Part shown: in pieces, positions 16,321-58,340 of the stretch | Layout: each line of letters opens with the position of its first letter | Numbering within the stretch: the first letter of the stretch is position 1 | Notes under the pieces: generated by a model | Database searches by the model: none | Told to the model about the DNA's origin: nothing | What the model saw: only the letters and a program-made list of their open reading frames with translations | NCBI GenBank assembly: GCA_000827265.1 | Contig: KN834749.1 | Span: forward strand, 299,500 to 363,499 | Origin: Collybiopsis luxurians FD-317 M1 | Taxonomy: Eukaryota; Basidiomycota; Agaricomycetes; Agaricales; Omphalotaceae | Direction: 5' to 3' | DNA: 64,000 bases | Made by a program: the position numbers and the translations under genes

Positions 16321-17325
16321 TCAGTCGGTTTCCCAAGCTATTTTGGCAAAAATATTGGGGGTAGGAATCAACGCGGCCTTGAGGGAAGGTTCGACAGTGA
16401 CGCTAACCAAAAGTTTAGCAAACACGGATTTTGACTCGCAAGGAAAGAGCAATTTACGTGGTGTCAAGCCCCCGCAGAACCTGAGCAAAGTTCGCACCTG
16501 CATAGACACAGGGAAGTAAGCTTTTCGACGGAATGGGTCAACTTCCAGAATAGCATACCGTCTCGCTTGCTGGGGTGGGACTGTGAGCATAGGGACCACA
16601 GATGGATGACTGAACACTTACTCAGCCTCCCATGCTTCCTTGGCAAAGATGACTGAAGTCGGAGTTGGAATCGCTGAGGTCGTAGTAGTGGTAATGATGT
16701 CAAAGGGAGACAGATCATCTCGTTTCCTGGAGAAAATTATTATCTTCCCGGACATCGATTCCAACATTGATTGCTTACTCCCAGGCTTCCTTGGCAAAAA
16801 TGGCTGGAGACGGAACAGATGAGGTAGTAACAGGACTTTCACTGGAGGACACATCATCTCGTTTCCTAAATGGAAATCAATAAACAAGAATGAAAATCTT
16901 TCGGAATCAATACCAACTTGGCTTTCCAGGCGTCTTCCGCGAAAATCAATGAGCTGATTGGAGTCGAGGTCGCGGTAGTGGAGTCGAAACTATGAAGGGG
17001 CAGGTTATCAAAACTTCAGTGTCCACTTTGCGAGGGAAATTCAGAATTTACGAGGTCTGAGCCTCCCACTGATTTTTGGCAAAGATCAGTGCAGCGCTAG
17101 AAGTGTCGGCCGCTTCTACAAGTCGAGCGTTACCATTGAGTAAAACGCGATATAAATGAACGGACCATATCGTTTCCTGTAAGGTTTGTCCGTTAAAAAT
17201 CTCGCACGGGGTATGAATTCCAACGTACTCTTCCCAGGCAACTTTGGCAAAAATTAATGGAGCCGGGACCAAAGTGGTAGAAGTCGCAGACGCTTGAGTC
17301 CCATTCATATCTAGAGCACGATCCA
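16321..17325 (-). repeat. Six exon-encoded IFAK-x-AWE repeats
   Basis: The repeat is visible in DNA as well as protein: the minus strand repeatedly reads atttttgccaa(a/g)-NNN-GC-TGG-GA. Copies lie near 17250, 17080, 16935, 16795, 16640 and 16340. The block just before most KR exons ends TGG GA(G), then intron, then (G)AAACGA or (C)AAGCGA. Exons carrying repeats end in phase 2, so units can be duplicated or lost without changing frame. Confidence 0.85.
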
Positions 17326-17455
17326 CTGCGACCGTTCAAGAAGGTAAGCGGCTCTGCTCATCATATATCATCCTGCATAGCTCGTCACCTTGAAGCGGCA
17401 GAGTTAGTGCGCTGGAAGCGATAGCGAAGATCGTAAAAATAGCGCGACGCTGCAT
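16321..17455 (-). CDS. Secreted Kex2-type repeat precursor, candidate RiPP (dikaritin-like) precursor peptide
   Basis: Ten exons join in frame with GT-AG ends: 17455-17389, 17325-17229, 17176-17166, 17115-17052, 16989-16918, 16865-16779, 16726-16622, 16569-16559, 16497-16458 and 16402-16321, giving 211 aa. Residues 1-22 (MQRRAIFTIFAIASSALTLP...) are a signal peptide. Six copies of IFAK-x-AWE follow. Their IFA starts lie near residues 47, 69, 95, 126, 159 and 202; copy 2 reads IFAKNQWEA and copy 3 IFAEDAWKA. Lys-Arg pairs at 56-57, 105-106, 134-135 and 169-170 lie just after copies 1, 3, 4 and 5, and are often followed by Asp-Asp or Asp-Gly. Between them are Ser/Thr/Pro-rich linkers. Secretion, then kexin cleavage, is expected to release peptides ending in the AWE block. 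No KR separates copies 2 and 3. The UstYa-family gene 1.3 kb away suggests oxidative cyclisation. The peptide product and function are unknown. A different small-peptide role (cell-wall repellent, pheromone) remains possible. Confidence 0.85.
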
Positions 17456-18745
17456 CTTCTCGTAAACAGGGATTAGAAAAGAGGATGAGTATGGCTGACG
17501 GTTTCTAGACGAGGAAGGAGATGGGGAGATTTAGAGGTCGTACGGTCTTGTTTTATAGCCTCTCGCCTCCGCAAAGGCCTCGGTCAAAAGGAAAAGCAAG
17601 ACCGGTGCACGTTTAGACTTCATGATTTTGGAAGTGTTTAATTTGAAAGTTATGAACTCGAAAGTGAAGCGGTGTCCTTCAGAGAGTGGTTCGAGTCGGA
17701 TCACCTGCAGAGTACGTGCTAGACCAGGGGCTCGACCCACAGGTTGACCTAAACATGGCTGTTAATTGTGGGGCGCGGTTGTGTTGAAAGGATTGCACCT
17801 GAAGAGAACAGGTCGGATATGAGACGAATGTCCCACTTGGAAGTGAGCGACAGGCGGGAAGTGACACATCCAAAGTCAAATCCAGTGCGAGGAATGCTTT
17901 TGTGGCTTGAGTCGCGTTTTTTTTTCTGTCCATCATTGAGAGGACGTCCGAGTCGAGCAAGCTGACAGACATGGCAAGTTGTTTCATTGTAAAATAAGCT
18001 TTGCGAGTATTTCTGTTCGAGGAAGCATCTAAAGAATAACTGCAGAATATCTAAAAGTCGAAACACAGGGGCATAAAATGCCTCCGCTATTAGCATCTAA
18101 AGAGAACATTTTGGTATGACTGGTTTTAAATGTCCCTTGCTCACTACAATGGGGCAAATTTAGACCAAAGAAAATATCGAGGAATCCTAGTGTTGTCAAT
18201 ATACGAACCAAGTAAGACGCACGAAGTGTCGGCTCGACGTGAATGATATCGGCAACTGCGAGCAGGGACAAACATTTGAGATCTGCGCCAACACCGTCAT
18301 TGGCGCCTTTAATCAATCGCGCATTTAGGAACTGTTATTGACCACATCTGTTCCGCCCCACCTCTTTATCATATCGACCACTACTGGCAAAGGACGCCCC
18401 GGCCTCGCTTACTGATGCCAAAGAACGAAACGCTTGAACTGCCAAAAATATATTCTCATACCATCAAAGATGTCGAATGGATCAATTTCCTGATACAGTA
18501 CCTTTTGCTAGCCTACTCATCATAACTCTGCAAGTCCCGTTTTCTTCTGTCATGTCAGTAAACTAGACTGTCACGTTTCGGTGGTTCAGTCTCAACCAAT
18601 CTGCGTAATGGAAAATCCTGTGTCTTTACTGCTTGCCAAAACAATTCGGCGATAATCAGACCCATGCTTCGAATAGATTGTCACACCTTGAAAAACGCCT
18701 AAATACGCGGATGGGCGGCCCCGATTGGCACTACTTTGATTTACA
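17456..18745. promoter_or_regulatory. Divergent intergenic region of precursor and UstYa-family genes
   Basis: About 1.3 kb with no supported coding exon. Both island genes are transcribed away from it, so shared regulation is possible but only inferred. Confidence 0.45.
17551..17557 (-). promoter_or_regulatory. TATA box of the repeat-peptide precursor gene
   Basis: TATAAAA on the minus strand, about 96-102 bp upstream of the ATG at 17455. Spacing would allow a 5' leader of roughly 65-70 nt, and it supports that ATG as the true start. Confidence 0.6.
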
Positions 18746-19669
18746 ATGCCCTCCCACACCTCCCTTGCATATCTTCCTCTCATACCAGAGGACCGAGACG
18801 AAAAGATATTTGATCATCCAGGTCGAAACTCATCCTATCGTCCCGTGCTCCTTTCGTGTCTTCTTCTGGTATCTCTGACCTTGAATGCTATTTTTGTCGC
18901 CTCCGTGTGGACGCAGTCGAAGTCGAATGATGAAGACGCTGCCGTGCAGTCTCTTTACTGTAGGACTCGTTTTCCATTATGATCTTTCCCTGACTCATCA
19001 TTTTCGAAAGCTCCTGCCCAAGATGCAGTTGAGTATGAAACCGTGAAATTTCACAGCGGTTTCGGGCCAGACTTGCCTATCTATGATCGTGCTCCGTCTC
19101 CAGAAGTTGATGCCGCCTGGGATGGTCTTTACGAATGTGGGTCATTTCTTAGTGACTATATTTGAGCCACTAACATCAACATTTCGACAGTTGCCCTTAC
19201 CAAGGTTCCGCGAGACCAAGCTTTACTAATGGCCAACAGGACCTGGCCTATTCTTGGAGAAGAAGATCACTACATGGTTGCATTGGATGTTTTTCACCAG
19301 CTGCACTGTTTGGTTAGCTTTCAACGCCTTGATTGTGGAATCTTTTAACAGACGTATGTCCCGCAGAATGAGATGCGAAAGGCCATGCATCCAGAATATT
19401 ATGCCGTAACCGGAGAGGGAATTCATACTCCCCATATGCAGCATTGTATCTCAAGTCTGCGACAGTCGATTACATGCTCCTCCGATATTACCCCAATCGT
19501 TTGGCAGTGGTCAGAGAGATCTAAGGCTGCTAAAGAACGAAGTGATGTCGTACACACTTGTCGAAATTTCGACAGAATTAAAGACTGGGCTCGAAATCAC
19601 TTTGTTCCTCGTCAGCAAAACATGTCGATCTACATCGAGGACGACACGGACATTGCTACCTTTTGGTGA
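18746..19669 (+). CDS. UstYa-family (DUF3328) protein, putative RiPP oxidase/cyclase
   Basis: Four exons join in frame: 18746-18959, 19011-19136, 19191-19312 and 19352-19669, giving 259 aa, the family's usual size. A cytosolic N-terminus of about 30 residues is followed by one membrane helix (VLLSCLLLVSLTLNAIFVAS, about 32-51), then a lumenal domain. Both defining HxxHC motifs are present: HQLHC at 149-153 and HMQHC at 182-186. They are flanked by the usual context, DVFHQLHCL and then LRQ...C followed by W. In ustiloxin, phomopsin, asperipin and cyclochlorotine pathways such proteins drive oxidative ring closure or hydroxylation of precursor-derived peptides (established knowledge). Here it lies divergent to a Kex2-repeat precursor, which strongly suggests that precursor is its substrate. 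A few UstYa-like proteins serve non-peptide pathways, so the pairing is an inference. Confidence 0.92.
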
Positions 19670-22157: not shown

Positions 22158-23598
22158 TTACCAGCTGAGATCGAGTCCCTCCAATGCTGGAATCGGGCGT
22201 TCCGCCTACGGCGTGATCAACTCAGTTGTTCTCGGGCTAAAACAAAACAAGTCCTACCTGTGGTGTTATTCGGGCCCCATGTCTTCTCTCTTTCGACTCA
22301 CCATAGTCGACAATGGCGGACTATTGACGAATTTATCAGTAAGCGTCAAAAAGAGAGAAATCATGATGAACTTACGTGAGCAGTGATGCGGTTGTCCCAA
22401 AGGACAACTGTGTTTGGAGTCCAATGAAGTCGAGCTTGCAAGTCAGCTCCCTTGTCAATATGGTCGAACAAAAACTTGAGAAGGGTTTCTGATAGATAAC
22501 TCGGTTAGTAGATAACAGATGACGAGATAAATGTAGCTCCATACCGGACTCCTCCTTTTTCAGACCAAGAATTCGACGTGTAAACTGTCTGTTGACATAC
22601 AAGGCCTCTTCTCCTGTGACTGGATGCTTTCTCACCACAGGATGGACATGCTCTACAGGCTCGCGACGGACAATACCACCTCGCTTGCCTGTTCGAGAGT
22701 AGTTGGCTTGTTCGATTCCCGAATGGACAGCTTTCAAGGTTTTCAGAAAACCTACAAACTGGGGAGACAACTTTTTCAACGTAGAAACCTGCGAAGTGAA
22801 AAGTGTATCGCCGCCAGTTGATGGTTGCGAAAGGAGGAAGAAGGTTGTCAGACCAGGGGGCTGAAGTTCATACGACACATCAGAGTGCCAGAAAGTAGAC
22901 GTGATACTATCTGCGATCTCAAAGTTGAAGCTAGAGTTCTCATCTCGGTAAACAAGATGGACTTCGGGGTATCCCGACGGATGACCACTCGCTGGGTGTA
23001 TGTGATTCCTAAGTTTGGTTTCAATTTGCTGAGGAGGCACATGGACATGAGGGAGTTCCGTACCGGCCGAAATAACTGCCCCATTCAAGGTAAAAATCAG
23101 GGCCAGCGTCAATGAAGTCTTGCTGATCTCTAAAGACGACCAAGCCTCTGCGGGCAACCTAAACAAAATGAACATCAAGATGCCCAAATTGAATTTCTGT
23201 ACATACCAATAATGCAAGCTGGTCACGTTGATCGGAAGAAAGCGTTCGCAGATTGACACCATGGACTTCCGTACCTACAGTATATATTGGATCGTTAGCC
23301 TACTTCAGACACAGCCGGACATACGCCACTTCGTACCCAAATTAGGAGTTAGTTCTATAATCGACGCATTATCGAGGAAAGATCGAGGGTTGGGGTGACT
23401 CAGAGCACGGTGGCCTGGGTCAACGTGTTCAAAAGGAGTCAACGGAGGGTAACGGTCCTGCGTGAAAACAGGCAGAAGGTGGGAGTATCGGTAATCCCCC
23501 GAGGATTGCGTCTGCTTTTCGTCTCCTTGGGAAGAGCGAAGCTTCAGTGTGGCAGCAGAAGCGGGCTCGGTTTGAGTTTCGACGGTTGTGGAAGACAT
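22158..23598 (-). CDS. TauD/TfdA-family Fe(II)/2-oxoglutarate dioxygenase
   Basis: Non-heme iron oxygenase that couples 2-oxoglutarate decarboxylation to hydroxylation of a small substrate. Taurine and other sulfonates are typical in fungi, but relatives act in natural-product pathways. The start at 23598 gives a polar N-terminus of about 60 residues. Then come NLGTEVHGVNLRTLSSDQRD and RGLVVFRDQQDFIDAGPDF. The iron-binding H-x-D lies in FWHSDVSYE. The distal His is in TAHSAIVDYG, and the 2-oxoglutarate-binding Arg in RRHGARITP. Several introns of about 50 nt join in frame; the stop at 22158-22160 follows LEGLDLSW. It is convergent with the seven-helix gene. Whether it works on the island's peptide or in sulfur scavenging cannot be decided from sequence. 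Confidence 0.92.
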
Positions 23599-24378
23599 TG
23601 TTTCGTTTGAACTTGTATCCAGCGTCCAGTATAAATACTGCAGTAGGCACCGGAAGCGGCTTTAATCGTCATGATCTCGCAATGTCAAGGTCATCCCACT
23701 CATGCACCGTGCAACTTCGTGTGAGTGAAGCAATTCAACGACGGGATGGCGAAAGTTAGTCTCCACGAAGAAGGTTACTTACCGGGACTCCGTCGATTAG
23801 ATAACGAGATAAGATATTTCAAGATAAGATAATGTCAATCATGCCCTTGTGACCTAATTGTCTTTTCTTTTGTGCTTTTACCAAGTCCGTGTTCCTGAGG
23901 CTAATCTGAGGCATCCATTCAATCAATGGCTCAAATCAAGCTCAAATCGAGAAATCGAGCTTGAAACGATATTCAGAAACTCTTCGTGAATGCCTTTCTA
24001 TACCAGGTTGGTGAAGACTGAGTTGCGGAGCTTCCAGGACTATACCGGACCACCAAAAGCGTCGGCTACGGATGGGAATTATTCCATCTTATTGTTTACC
24101 GGATATATGACTTACGCCATAAGGTTCATTTCTTTTTGTTTAAAATGTCTACCTAACGTTATCTATCTCTATTGTTTAATTGTTTTTTGGGATCGGTGGG
24201 CTATTGCTTGTTCGTTGGAAGATGAAATCGAATGTTAGAGGATCCGGAAGCGGTTCACTTAAAAAAGGGCGCAAACTTGACGGAACTTCCTCACTTTCGT
24301 TTCCTCCTTGAGGCCTAGTTGCCCTCCCCCCTCTGGTTGTAGCATCTTGCTCGAATTTTCTCCGATCATCGTCACATC
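23599..24378. promoter_or_regulatory. Divergent intergenic region of dioxygenase and OPT genes
   Basis: About 780 bp, no supported exon. It contains a GATAA-rich stretch (gataacgagataagatatttcaagataagataatg, about 23798-23833) with several GATA-factor core sites, suggesting nitrogen control of the flanking dioxygenase and oligopeptide transporter. That regulation is inferred. Confidence 0.5.
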
Positions 24379-27107
24379 ATGGAGGATGCCAAAGCCTACA
24401 ACTCTTCTACGGAGGATTTCATGTCCTATCCAGCTACGACTCTTCGAGCACGGCGCGTTCCTGACGTGCCCCTCGATGTTGATGATGATTTCGTGCAGGA
24501 GCACTTAAACGATCCGTATCTGGACCTCTCGAAGCCTCTCAAGGCCGCTACAGAGTCTATGGAGCTGTCCGACAAGAAGGTACAGCAAATGATCTATGCC
24601 CCGTCCGAGCTGGATGCAGAGTCCAACATGGACTCTTCGGATCGTTACTCTACCTCTCGTGCAGAGTCGCGAAACTCAACTGCCATTGAGTTTGACGAGT
24701 ACGTTTTCCATATGTTTGTCCAGGTTTCTCTCGCTAACTACAGTGCAGCGAGTCTCCCTACCCCGAAGTTCGTGCTGCAGTGTCGAGCACTGACGATCCC
24801 CAAATGCTCGTCAACACTTTCCGCATGTGGTTTTTGGGAATTGTCTTCTCGATCCTGGTGTCTGGTATTAATCAATTCTTTGGCGCTCGATGTATGTACA
24901 TCTTGTTCAATCTCCTTTTTCTTCTACCAAGTCTCACTCGGGATTTCCAGACCCCTCCGTTTATATCAGTGGTATCGTAGTGCAGCTGGTCGTTCTGCCT
25001 TGCGGAAAACTACTGGAGAAGATTCTGCCGAAATATCAGTTCAACACGTTCGGTTTCCGCTGGTCATTCAATCCCGGCCCCTTCACCATCAAGGAGCATG
25101 TTTGCATTACCATCATGGCTAATGTTGTCGTCGGGGGTGCATACGCAACCGACATCATTGCAACGCAGAGACTCTTCTACGGTCAGGCCGTCCCTTACGG
25201 CTACCAGATTCTTCTCTGCATCGGTTCGCAGGTGCTTGGCTTTTCATTGGGTGGTCTTCTACGACAGTTCGTTGTCTGGCCTTCAAGTATGATCTGGCCA
25301 GGAGCCTTGGTCAATGCCGCCCTTTTCAATACCTTGCACAAGAACTACGGCAGACGCGATCGCGGCCACATGACTCGCGAACGTTTCTTCCTTTTCGCCT
25401 TTCTTGGCAGCTTCGCTTACTACTGGCTGCCGGGGTACTTATTCACTGCTCTTAGTATCTTTAACTGGGTTTGCTGGATCGCTCCCAACAACATACCTGT
25501 AAACGCTTTGTTCGGCACCTCCAGCGGATTGGGAATGGGTATCTTCACTTTCGACTGGTCCATGATTGCGTATATCGGCAGCCCTCTCGTCACACCCGTA
25601 TGTCCTGTTGACTCTGCTCGACCGCCGGTTAACTCATCTATCTTTCTAGTGGTGGTCTGAGTTGAATACGATCGTGTCGCTCGTCATCCAGTTTTTCATA
25701 CTGGTTCCCATCCTTTACTGTAAGTTTCCTCGCTTCTTTTCGTGCATCCCGCAACTCATCCTTGCAGTTACAAATGCATTCAATACCGCGTATCTTCCGA
25801 TATCGGCACCCATTTCCTTTGATAACACTGGGGCACCCTATGATGTCTCTCAGGTCGTTACCGACGGACAATTTGATAACGCAAAATATCTTGCATATTC
25901 TCCTGTTTTCATACCTGCAACTTTGTGCATCGCTTATGCAAGTTCTTTTGCTGCCTTTTCGGCTGTCTTTGTCCATACGTTCTGTCAGTTATTCTTTCTC
26001 TAATCAATTTTCGGTGGACTAACTTCCGTTGCAGTATGGTTCCGACGCGATATCGCCCGTCGCTTCCGATCCACGCTGAAGGATGAACGCGACGTTCATT
26101 CCCGTCTCATGCAGGCTTATCGCGAGGTCCCATGGACGTGGTATATCGGGCTCGGTATCGTCGCCATGGTCTTTTTCCTGATATCTGTTCACCTTGTGCC
26201 CACTGGTTTCCCCGTTTGGGCCGCAGTGTTCGCCTTTGCCCTCTCATCCTTACTTGCTCTTCCTATGGCCATGCTTCAAGCTATTACCAACCAGCAGGTC
26301 GGGAACATCCAAGTCTTTTTCGAGCTCATTGGTGGTTACATTCTGCCTGAACGGCCGGTTGCCGTCATCATCTTCAAAGGACTCACTTACATCACCACGA
26401 GCCAGGCTATAACGTTCTCCGGCGACATGAAACTTGGTCATTACATGAAAATTCCTCCGCGCCTGATGTTCGCGGTACAGACTGTCGCAGTAACTTTTGC
26501 CTGCTTCACCGTCACTCTGGTCCAGAATTGGATGTTCGCTAACATCGAGGACTACTGTTCTCCCGATCAGAAAGATGGTTTCACCTGTCCGTCCACGAAC
26601 GCTTTTGCGACCTCCTCCCTCATCTGGGGCGGTGTTGGCCCCACTCGCATGTTCAACATTGGCAGACCATTCAACCCACTTCTCTACTTCTACCTCATTG
26701 GCGCTGTCCTTCCTATTCCTTTCTACTTCCTTGCTCGTCGTTACCCTCTCTCATTTTGGAGATACATCAACATTCCTGTCTTCTTTGGGGGTGTTGGCGC
26801 CATTCCTCCCGCTTCTGGAATCAACTACACCTCATGGGCAACTGTCGGATTCATCTTCAACTATTGTATGCGCCGCTTCCACTTTAGGTGGTGGATGCGC
26901 TACAACTATATCCTCTCGGCCGCACTCGACGGCGGCGTTGCTATTGGTCTCATCGTAATATTCTTCGTATTGCAGCTCCCGAAGGGTGGTATTTCCCTCA
27001 ACTGGTGGGGAAATTCAGTTTACTTGAACACCGCTGACTACTTGGGTCTTCCACTCAAGCTTCCTGATGGGCCAAACGGCACATTCGGTCCCTCCTCATG
27101 GGCGTAA
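24379..27107 (+). CDS. OPT-family oligopeptide transporter
   Basis: Proton-coupled importer of small peptides, or of glutathione or siderophore-type conjugates, in the plasma membrane. An acidic N-terminal cytosolic segment of about 110 residues is followed by about 13-16 hydrophobic helices. Family marks are INQFFGARYPSV (joined across the intron ending near 24953), GPFTIKEHVCITIMANV and the QRLFYGQ loop. Further marks are WPSSMIWPGALVNAALFNTL, NQQVGN, GYILPERPVA and MKIPPRLMF, the variant of the OPT KIPPR motif. Internal introns of about 50-60 nt lie near 24698-24749, 24893-24952, 25600-25650, 25722-25767 and 25985-26034. The last exon to 27107 ends after a hydrophobic helix. It closes the accessory island, with PRP19 beyond it on the other strand. 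Confidence 0.95.
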
Positions 27108-38430: not shown

Positions 38431-39411
38431 AGCGTCCTCGGGAACGCCAGATAAGCGAAGAATAATCCAGCGCGTAGAAAAAATATGGAGACCAGGATAG
38501 TGAGAAAATCCAAGAGAGTGGAAATAGATACCGTAATTGGAATCTGGTTGGCAGGAATCTGATCAAGTCAATCTGGGGAAATGATGGCACACGTTTCCCA
38601 GCTTTTCGGGGCGGGTCAGCCAACACAGGAGATGGATGAAGAAATGCTTGAATTCTTGAACGAACGAGGGAGAAAAACGGTACCAGTGTAAAATTCTTAC
38701 TATTCAAGGACGAACAGCAAAATTTTATGGCTAAGTTTTTGGGAGCGGTGCCTTTTGAATGCAGGGGTACCGGTTTCCACGAGCACAAGATACCGGGGTT
38801 GCATCTTGAGAAATACTGCCAGGATTCAGCGACCTTCGGACGACGTTCATCGAGCTTTGGACGACTGGGACCACATCAGATGGCTGTTGCAGGCAAAGTC
38901 CCCTCGTTGGTAGAGTATCTCCAGGATTCTCAACAATGAATGCGAAGAAATCTTATCAGTCTGCCGTGTGTTAGACCGTGCGCCGTTTATATTACTAATA
39001 ACATCTTGCGTCAATGACGAACGACGAGGACGCGTTGCGAAGACTGATGCCTGTTCTTATCCTTCTGGCCTGTCTAATGTAAGCTGAGATGCAAATCTTG
39101 TCGAGACAGAATCTGATACGCTTTTTATGTAGCATTGGAGGAATTCTGTGGTGTTTTTGTAGTTCATGCATGGGGGCGCCAATGCGCAGACTTGCGTCAA
39201 ATCTATGGGAGTTCGTCGTTTTGAGTGCTAAACATGGAGGAGACAGACGACGGAGATTTGGAGATTCGGAACTATGGGAGATGGAGCATCGAAGAGGAAT
39301 ATGAATATGCTGTATGATCATTGAAAGAAATGAAATTTCATAATGAGTGCTATGAGCCTCAGTTCCGTAAAAGGCAAAAAATTGTTTTGGTATTGTTTGG
39401 CCCTTGCCAGC
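38431..39411. other. Divergent intergenic region, CDF and secreted protein
   Basis: About 1 kb. A few open but unsupported frames; no recognisable gene. Confidence 0.45.
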
Positions 39412-39418
39412 TATTTAA
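39412..39418 (+). promoter_or_regulatory. TATA-like element of the secreted Ser/Pro-rich gene
   Basis: TATTTAA about 110 bp upstream of the ATG at 39529. Confidence 0.35.
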
Positions 39419-39528
39419 GTCTGCAACCCCCAATAACGCTTCTTCAACTTGTACTTCCATCATCTACTTGGAAAGACCTGTACACATCTCTATCTTATAC
39501 TAGACCTACGTTCTCTATTTACCAAATC

Positions 39529-40539
39529 ATGAAACTTTCATCCAGTTCATCGCTCGTCTTTGCTACTCTGGCTATATCCTCATCCTCTTCAACCTTGTCC
39601 GCTCTTGCTGCCCCCGCAGGTGATCCCGCCCAAGCTCATTCTGGCGTTAGTGCACCCAATAACAATTTTAATGCTGCTCGCCGTGGTTCTATCTCTTTTC
39701 CCCGCGCCCAAGACGATATTCAAGAAGCGCCTTTCCAAGGTTTGTCGCGCATATCTGCCTTTTTTGTTTCATCTCCCCTAATGCAAACGGTAGAGCAAGA
39801 TCGAGCCGTTGAGAAACGAGATCCCATTGGTAGCATATGTGCCTTGCTCACTAGTTTACCACTCGGTCCACTGGTTAGTCCACTACTGTGTCCGCCAGAC
39901 AAATCAATCGACACCGCCAGTGCCGATAGTTTGGCAATGTTCGACCAGTCTTCACCTTCGGACACGTCCAGTGATCAGACTTCCGCTTTCTCTGCATCTG
40001 TTTCTCCGTCATCTAGCAGTTCTTCTGCGTGCAACATGCCCACACAACCACCTTCCCGTCGTGGTGTCTCCCAACACCCAGAAGCTGTTCCCGACGCGGC
40101 TGCTGGCGTTGTCGGCTCCACCCCGGCTGGCGGTGAAGCCGCATCTTCACCAGTCAACCCCAATGACTTGTCGAACACCGCTAAACCAGTCAAGAGCCAT
40201 TCGGGAGACGCCACTCAGAGTGCGGGCCAGGCTCCATCCAAAGTCGTTAATCAGGTTCCCAAGTCGATCAAAGATGAGGCTGGGAAAGCAAAAGGCGAAC
40301 TTCCTCAAACCGCGAAAGGTACTGCAGGAAAAGTCGGCCAAGTTGTTTCGGAGCAAGTTCCCGCTCGCAGAAGTCATCGAGCTCGTCGTGACGTACCGCC
40401 TTCCGCTTCGACTTCTTCTTCGGTTCATCCTCCCGCTCAGCCTCCAGTTCAGCCCCCAGTTCAGTCTCCAGTTCAGCCTTCGGCCAGTACCACTGATACG
40501 AGCACAGTAGCTGAGCCTACCACCCCGACCTCTGCTTAA
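39529..40539 (+). CDS. Secreted Ser/Pro-rich protein, unknown
   Basis: Single exon of 336 aa. An in-frame ATG further upstream (39343) would mask the signal peptide; starting at 39529 gives MKLSSSSSLVFATLAISSSS..., a good signal peptide ending near ALA-AP. A Lys-Arg pair in VEKRDPIGSICALL (about residues 102-103) is a possible kexin site. The short hydrophobic stretch after it is flanked by two Cys. The rest is low-complexity: Ser/Ala/Pro-rich with a Lys/Gly segment and, near the end, the repeat QPPVQPPVQSPVQ. An Arg-rich patch RRSHRARRD precedes it. No known domain. Looks like an extracellular or cell-wall protein processed in the Golgi. Not part of the RiPP island and has no repeats of the AWE type. 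Confidence 0.75.
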   Translation: MKLSSSSSLVFATLAISSSSSTLSALAAPAGDPAQAHSGVSAPNNNFNAARRGSISFPRAQDDIQEAPFQGLSRISAFFVSSPLMQTVEQDRAVEKRDPIGSICALLTSLPLGPLVSPLLCPPDKSIDTASADSLAMFDQSSPSDTSSDQTSAFSASVSPSSSSSSACNMPTQPPSRRGVSQHPEAVPDAAAGVVGSTPAGGEAASSPVNPNDLSNTAKPVKSHSGDATQSAGQAPSKVVNQVPKSIKDEAGKAKGELPQTAKGTAGKVGQVVSEQVPARRSHRARRDVPPSASTSSSVHPPAQPPVQPPVQSPVQPSASTTDTSTVAEPTTPTSA

Positions 40540-55973: not shown

Positions 55974-58340
55974 TTATAAAGGCCTCCACCCCTCCCCCTC
56001 AGCGACCGGCCATTTCAGGTTATCTTTCTCTATGCTCACCCTGCCAAGTTCCTTCCCTACCTCATTCCCATTCCGACTTGCTAATCCTACCCCATCACTC
56101 GCGCTCCTCCTTTCTGCTAGATGAGACTCATCATTATCATCACTGACATCTTCATCACTTTCCAATGACTGTTCCCAGCTCCCATCTCGCATGAGCCCCT
56201 CTTCCTCCTCCCTGCGTCGAATAATCGACCCGTGCTCGCGTACAAATCCCCGCTTGGACAATCCAGCTTCGGCTTTGAACCGCGCCTTGTCTAAATGAGG
56301 CTGCAGTTGCTGCTGCATCGACGATAGCTGTGGCTGCAACGACGCCGCGAGAGATTTGAGCGGATTGTCCGAAGTCGTTGTTACTGGAGACGAACCCGAG
56401 ACCTTTCGCTGATGTAATGGTTTTCGTAACGAAGCGGTCGGAGGTGAAGGTGTAGAAAAACTCGCGTGTCTACTGAGATTCAAAGGTGAATCACCCAACC
56501 CCAAGTTACCCCTCTGCGGACTACGATCATTTGCCCCGAGCACGTTACCCTTGGATCCAAGCACCTGAACACTCTCTGGTCTCTTCCTTCTCGGCATCGG
56601 CGATGGTCCGGGAGATGCGAAAGGTGATTCGCCGTCCAAGGGAGAAAATGGGGAACCATCCTGTCCGCCCGCCTCGTTAGCTGTCAAACGGCTAGCCAGT
56701 GATGGAGGACTAGGATGGTGTAGAGACTTGGATCGGAACATTCTGCCCGGTGATGGACCGTCGTCTCCGAAGTAATCGTTTTCTCTAGTTCGAGTCGGTG
56801 TAACGTCAGACGGAGCCCTGGTAAAGGACGAGACGTACGGTGAGGCTGTTTTTGGTGCGGATCCATATACAGCTTCGAAACTTTTGTTACCGGAATCATT
56901 AGTCAACGACTCAGTTGAATTCCGCAGCTGGCTGAATGACGGTCTGTGATTGTTTTTGGAACTGGTACCTGAGATGGCGTTGGATGAAGAGAGATTTGAC
57001 GGAACTGGAGGTGGAGGCTTGCGGTAAGATAAGCTCTGAAAATTGGAATTCTGATCAGGATGCTTTGGTGGCGGACCAGCGGGGAGCGGGGGCAAATCGG
57101 TCGATTTTCGAGAAGGTGATGTAGACGGGGAGCGGGAAAACACCGGCTGGAACGGACTAGACTTGAAGGGATTATGAGAAGAAGGCGTGGGCGTGGTATT
57201 ATTACTCATGCCTGCTAAAGCGACTTGTTGATAGGAAGTCGTCGACATGGGCGGTGACGGTGGTTTTTTGTTACGTTTCGGCAGTGGAGGGGGGTTGTGA
57301 TCGGATTCCGAGGTGAACGATGAAGATGATGCAGAGGAGCTAGTTTTATTTGGACTAGTGCTTCGCCCTCTAGAGTTGATGAACGGAGATGAACTAGCAG
57401 AGGAGGACGAGCTTTCCGAGCTTTTGAGCACCCTAAGGACTCGTTCCTTTTCTAGTTGCTCCTCAGCCTGCTTGATTGTCTTGCCATTCTTGGAAGCTAT
57501 CAAGCTTTGCTTCATGAGCGCAGACGTGACATGTGATGATTGGGAATGCGATAATGATGGCTTCGGAGGAGGAGGCGGCGGTAGATTGCCGCTGGTGGAG
57601 CCTACGAATGAACCATGCCGCGGAGGAGGTTGGAAACCAGGAATCGGCGGGGGAGGCTTTCTGGGAGGAAGAGGGGGAAGCTTGGGTGGAACAGAATCAT
57701 TATCCCCATCATGAGATCTTGCAGAAGTGCTACGACTACTTGAGAACGGATTATGACTAAAACTAGGATGTTGCGGAGGAGCTGAAAATGGATTTGTGGA
57801 TTCTGAGGATTTTCGCGAAGGAGCGGGAGGAGGGGCCTGTCCCTGATGCTTTGGGGGTGAACCGGGACGGGATATTGCATGGGGGGGAGGATGGGCTAAG
57901 ATATGTGAGTATTGAAACAAGAGGTTATATAACACGATAATACAGACCTTGTACAAAAGCCAGAGCGCGATCGACGTCCTTGCCTGATTCTGCATGGACG
58001 ACTAATCTGAGCGCCGCGAAAAACTGGCCGCCAGTAAGCGTATCTTGCTGGGATAGATTTGGCGAAAAAAAACGCAAAATCTGCGAAAAATTGAGTTGCA
58101 AGACAGGATAGATAAACTAGGACTCACACTGTCCAATGTCGCTGCTGGTAAATGAGAGTACCTGCCTCTGAGCCAAGCTCTGGCCTCCCTGACACTGACG
58201 GAGAGATTGTCGAAATCTTGAGATATAGAATCTAATTGACCGTCTGAAAGGGTGATATCTGCGAGACTTGAAGTATATAACTGATATTCGGCATCGTTCA
58301 GGGCAGATACATGGAGATCCAGACGTCGAGGAGAGGCCAT
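55974..58340 (-). CDS. EH-like N-terminal domain plus proline-rich protein
   Basis: Probable endocytosis or actin-patch scaffold. From ATG 58340, MASPRRLDLHVSALNDAEYQ starts a helical domain of about 105 residues. Joined across introns at 58130-58082 and 57949-57898, it includes LDSILRFFSPNLSQQDTLTG then GQFFAALRLVVHAESGK. This resembles an EH domain. The rest, about 640 residues in one long exon, is disordered. It has many PxxP and polyproline tracts (PPKLPPLPPRKPPPPIPGF, PPPPPPKPSL), a short helix KQAEEQLEKERVLRVLKS, and Ser-rich linkers. An upstream in-frame ATG at 58379 is less likely. The polyproline runs could bind SH3 or profilin. Specific family not identified. Confidence 0.8.

Follow-up and report, generated by a model that had tools for sequence, protein, structure and literature searches.

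The locus lies in a 64-kb window (the whole stretch of DNA that we analysed) and contains two divergent genes, a candidate peptide precursor on the minus strand and a UstYa gene on the plus strand. The precursor gene occupies 16321..17455. Its splice sites were placed by hand and give a predicted model of ten exons encoding 211 aa, with exons 1 to 5 at 17455-17389, 17325-17229, 17176-17166, 17115-17052 and 16989-16918 and exons 6 to 10 at 16865-16779, 16726-16622, 16569-16559, 16497-16458 and 16402-16321. All nine introns of this model are GT-AG and 50-63 nt long, and the joined frame of 211 residues has no internal stops, so we reproduced the ten-exon model of the initial annotation. Exon 1 (17389..17455, minus strand) encodes an N-terminus that is signal-peptide-like as judged only from hydropathy; the best 15-residue Kyte-Doolittle mean is 2.06 near the start, compared with 1.29 from residue 26 on. 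The protein had no match in Pfam, the NCBIfam models or PDB sequences.

The predicted protein carries six copies of a block that fits IFA[K/E]-x-[A/Q]-W-[E/K]. All lie on the minus strand: block 1 (IFAKVAWE, 17254-17231), followed by Lys-Arg in micro-exon 3; block 2 (IFAKNQWE, 17086-17063), with no Lys-Arg between it and the next block; block 3 (IFAEDAWK, 16946-16923), followed by Lys-Arg across intron 5; block 4 (IFAKEAWE, 16801-16778), followed by Lys-Arg, where base 16778 is the G of the intron donor and the Glu codon is completed by exon 7; block 5 (IFAKEAWE, 16650-16627), followed by Lys-Arg in exon 8; and block 6 (IFAKIAWE, 16353-16330), with a stop two residues on and no Lys-Arg after it. 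The initial annotation had described six IFAK-x-AWE units. The count of six stands, while that strict form is present in only four of the six copies, the others being IFAKNQWE and IFAEDAWK. The four Lys-Arg sites that it placed just after blocks are indeed there, at residues 56, 105, 134 and 169, which is after blocks 1, 3, 4 and 5 and not after 2 and 6, and one of the predicted kexin fragments retains two blocks. Block 3 shows a reciprocal charge swap from Lys4/Glu8 to Glu4/Lys8, and neither change occurs in the other five blocks. There are six Trp residues in the precursor, one in each block, and a single Tyr (Tyr58) outside them, so the blocks are free of Tyr, as the initial annotation said of the core. 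The protein has no Cys and ends in ETD.

Around the Lys-Arg sites the gene structure is regular. The Lys-Arg codons sit directly 3' of phase-2 introns, and two of them are carried on 11-nt micro-exons that contain little else: micro-exon 3 (17166..17176), after block 1, and micro-exon 8 (16559..16569), after block 5, both on the minus strand in the exon model. The introns that precede the Lys-Arg codons are 52 nt long in all four cases (16570-16621, 16727-16778, 16866-16917 and 17177-17228, minus strand). We considered whether these four introns were related copies, and a pairwise shuffle test gave no sign of it, as none of the six pairs was closer than shuffled sequences (smallest p 0.19). 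Exons 5, 6 and 7 each start and end in the same phase, which would permit duplication of a unit without a frameshift.

A structure like this could also be a chance or decayed repeat that is not a working gene. The model depends on the two micro-exons of 11 nt, and the donor that it uses at intron 5, GTTGGT, is unusual. We kept the blocks fixed and shuffled each spacer 2000 times with dinucleotides preserved. Splice paths that stay open as far as the following block were common, in 635 to 1572 of the 2000 shuffles of each spacer, so an open frame by itself is weak evidence for a gene. An open path that also places Lys-Arg just after the block was found in only 6 to 50 of 2000 per spacer, and finding Lys-Arg beside the blocks in at least four of the five spacers has a probability of about 3e-8 if the spacers are taken as independent. 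The initial annotation's reading of a repeat precursor for kexin, with an N-terminus that resembles a signal, is supported.

The blocks also differ from the sequence around them in how they have changed. Comparison of the six blocks with one another gives pS 0.82 and pN 0.15 (pN/pS 0.18), whereas for the nine residues preceding each block pS is 0.64 and pN is 0.57 (pN/pS 0.90), which argues that the selected part is the block adjoining the kexin site. The initial annotation had proposed a conserved part beside the kexin site with variable linkers, and these ratios agree with it. From the sequence, the copies look old, and protein-level constraint has apparently preserved the block as the linkers drifted. 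The strong evidence that this is a gene comes from the pN/pS values and from where the Lys-Arg sites fall. With a frame that joins without stops, Lys-Arg placement that shuffles rarely reproduce, and a low pN/pS despite high synonymous divergence, we consider a decayed or chance repeat very unlikely.

We looked for comparable repeats by scanning for similar 8-residue words at three or more places within 1.3 kb, on both strands and with low-complexity words excluded. The scan of the window gave 22 words, 21 of which were in the precursor gene, although 2 or 3 of these 21 come from another reading frame across the same blocks. The remaining word is a Pro-rich one, at three places, at 57833. In the 64.26-Mb assembly the strict block pattern had five matches, four at the precursor and one on C17, and the loose pattern had 14, six at the precursor and eight elsewhere that were all single; a reversed control pattern had none in either search. 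These patterns read contiguous DNA and would miss a block split by an intron. On C17 there are stops close before the motif (both strands were translated). We found no repeat words at three or more places at the C17 locus or at the six loose-match loci that lie outside C127 and C128. A protein search of the genome with the precursor gave ten matches, seven in the precursor gene and three elsewhere, on C35, C11 and C84, that were weak (E 0.35 to 4.6). By the two patterns and the one protein search, no second block cluster was found in the genome.

The UstYa gene (PF11807) lies at 18746..19669 on the plus strand, with exons at 18746-18959, 19011-19136, 19191-19312 and 19367-19669 that encode 254 aa. 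It is separated from the precursor, in both gene models, by a divergent intergenic region of 1290 bp (17456..18745). The match to PF11807 has an E-value of 1.8e-44 in six-frame translation and 2.9e-50 when intron 3 is ended 15 nt earlier (19351); a paralogue on C29 favours the end at 19366 that we used. The protein has both HxxHC motifs, HQLHC and HMQHC. The gene is apparently intact as read from the DNA, which supports the initial annotation as to a UstYa neighbour. It had no match among PDB sequences or NCBIfam models, and no relative in a prokaryotic contig collection.

On the other flank of the precursor is an ALG10 gene (PF04922). Past UstYa lie three genes seen as partial pieces: one for a membrane protein that no Pfam model matches, one for a TauD-type dioxygenase (PF02668) and one for an OPT transporter (PF03169). 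Beyond the transporter is a WD40 gene, which matches Prp19 best (8.1e-82, below that model's curated cut-off). The dioxygenase is at about 22372-23600 on the minus strand and the transporter at about 24379-27107 on the plus strand; nothing connects either of them to the precursor peptide. In the pieces between ALG10 and Prp19, where some genes are partial, Pfam identified no tyrosinase, P450 or methyltransferase. Elsewhere in the window, the plus strand at 39343-40539 holds an extended open frame rich in Ser and Pro, with what may be an internal signal sequence, a Lys-Arg site and no Pfam match.

This genome has few UstYa matches. PF11807 gave at least eight matching stretches at four places: the precursor neighbour, two on C89, two on C64 and three on C29. 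The three on C29 look like one gene, and of the places away from the precursor it is C29 that gave the strongest tblastn match to our UstYa protein. On C89 and C64 the two matching stretches are in opposite orientation. We scanned 9.9 kb around each of these three places (the C89 piece has 149 N). Within about 5 kb of the UstYa genes the repeat-word scan detected no repeat precursor, although a shorter core would be missed; the motif FA[K/R/E]..[W/Y/F][E/D/K] was absent, and DNA direct repeats had no visible coding pattern. Frames with at least two Lys-Arg were present in the C89 and C29 neighbourhoods and not in that of C64, and none of them resembles a repeat precursor by eye. One C29 frame has four Lys-Arg inside a basic low-complexity stretch.

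We believe that this is a dikaritin-like RiPP locus, in which a kexin-processed repeat precursor is paired with a UstYa enzyme, and we give this reading a probability of about 0.58. The dikaritins include the ustiloxin, phomopsin, asperipin, victorin and epichloecyclin families, and UstYa was formerly known as DUF3328. Under this reading the precursor would be secreted and cut by kexin after Lys-Arg in the Golgi, and a carboxypeptidase would then trim the basic residues. The released peptides would end at the IFA[K/E]xxW[E/K] block or up to two residues beyond it, and the neighbouring UstYa probably modifies the block, by oxidation or ring closure, before or after cutting. One precursor could yield up to five different cores. 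The [M+H]+ values calculated for the linear blocks are 993.504 (IFAKEAWE), 963.530, 977.546, 979.488 and 1035.526, and kexin fragments of 2823.321 and 3553.747 are predicted as well. We infer the secretion, cutting and trimming from the anatomy of the precursor. The action of UstYa on the block is proposed from its adjacency and from the activity of UstYa in known dikaritins, and the chemistry and biological role of the product are likewise proposals.

Several observations favour the dikaritin-like reading. The UstYa gene is divergent from the precursor and only 1.3 kb away, with a strong family match and both HxxHC motifs; the precursor has consistent splice signals, a constrained block and Lys-Arg sites beyond what shuffles produce. 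The genome has two stretches matching the kexin-type P-domain (PF01483), on C23 (3.7e-20) and C38 (5.1e-15), although this is the P-domain only and not the catalytic domain. By the scan, only one of the four UstYa places has a repeat precursor, and the block cluster is the only one found. As in the known dikaritins, there is a secreted-type precursor with a conserved core, repeated beside Lys-Arg, and an adjoining UstYa gene. The differences are that the core here is eight residues long and free of Tyr, that the blocks are on separate exons, that the examined pieces yielded no other tailoring gene, and that the genome is of agaricomycete type. The IFA[K/E]xxW[E/K] core is not known to us from any of the dikaritin families. 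Some of this counts against the reading: Tyr is common in known UstYa substrates and is missing from this core, and several known dikaritin clusters have accessory enzymes, whereas the ALG10 to Prp19 pieces gave no tyrosinase, P450 or methyltransferase. The kexin fragment with two blocks and the lack of Lys-Arg after block 6 also fit it poorly.

With one genome only, the adjacency of precursor and UstYa could be accidental. In that case the precursor would be an ordinary kexin-processed repeat protein, its linear peptides acting as secreted signals or surface peptides, as the processing signals require no tailoring enzyme. Kex2-processed repeat proteins (KEPs) have the same signal-type N-terminus, variable linkers and kexin sites between repeats, and here too the repeats are bounded by Lys-Arg after four of the six blocks. 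This precursor differs from them by its UstYa neighbour and by Lys-Arg codons that immediately follow a phase-2 intron, two of them on 11-nt micro-exons. The block would fit a short helix that has a Lys-Glu pair at i and i+4, and the swap in block 3 would preserve this pair. The three remaining UstYa places gave no sign of a precursor like this, so a UstYa gene does not predict one. Yet with so few UstYa matches in the genome, one is immediately divergent to the sole precursor of this kind that we found. We regard unmodified linear peptides as a possible, if somewhat unlikely, explanation.

A role of the peptides as alpha-factor-like mating pheromones is also conceivable, since the layout of Lys-Arg-separated repeats in a secreted precursor resembles ascomycete alpha-factor-type precursors. 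In basidiomycetes, however, and in agaricomycetes among them, STE3 receptors have prenylated CaaX peptides as their pheromones, and this precursor has no Cys and no CaaX motif at its ETD end. STE3 matches 37 stretches of the genome, which lie on C2, C6, C27, C35 and C97; C1 has none. The same genome has 44 hydrophobin stretches and 42 DUF6534 stretches, some of the latter under the cut-off, and all three families indicate a fungus of agaricomycete type. We find a pheromone role highly improbable.

Returning to the dikaritin-like reading, the charge swap in block 3 suggests that positions 4 and 8 are in contact, either through a helix salt bridge or, more boldly, through an isopeptide, although the swap is a single event that was spotted post hoc. 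The boldest form of the proposal is a block crosslinked between positions 4 and 8 as a Lys-Glu isopeptide, or linked oxidatively by UstYa on Trp, Phe or Lys, which would make this a Tyr-free mushroom family of UstYa RiPPs with new ring chemistry. Relative to the linear peptide, an oxidative link would lower the mass by 2.016 and an isopeptide by 18.011. No isopeptide-forming enzyme was identified near the precursor, and we hold this boldest proposal, in either form, to be speculative and unlikely.

The swapped pair nonetheless gives a specific hypothesis as to which residues touch. If UstYa does modify the peptide, its chemistry would come to include a core that lacks Tyr and contains Trp, in a fungus of agaricomycete type, and the precursor and UstYa would together make a compact two-gene system in which to test it.
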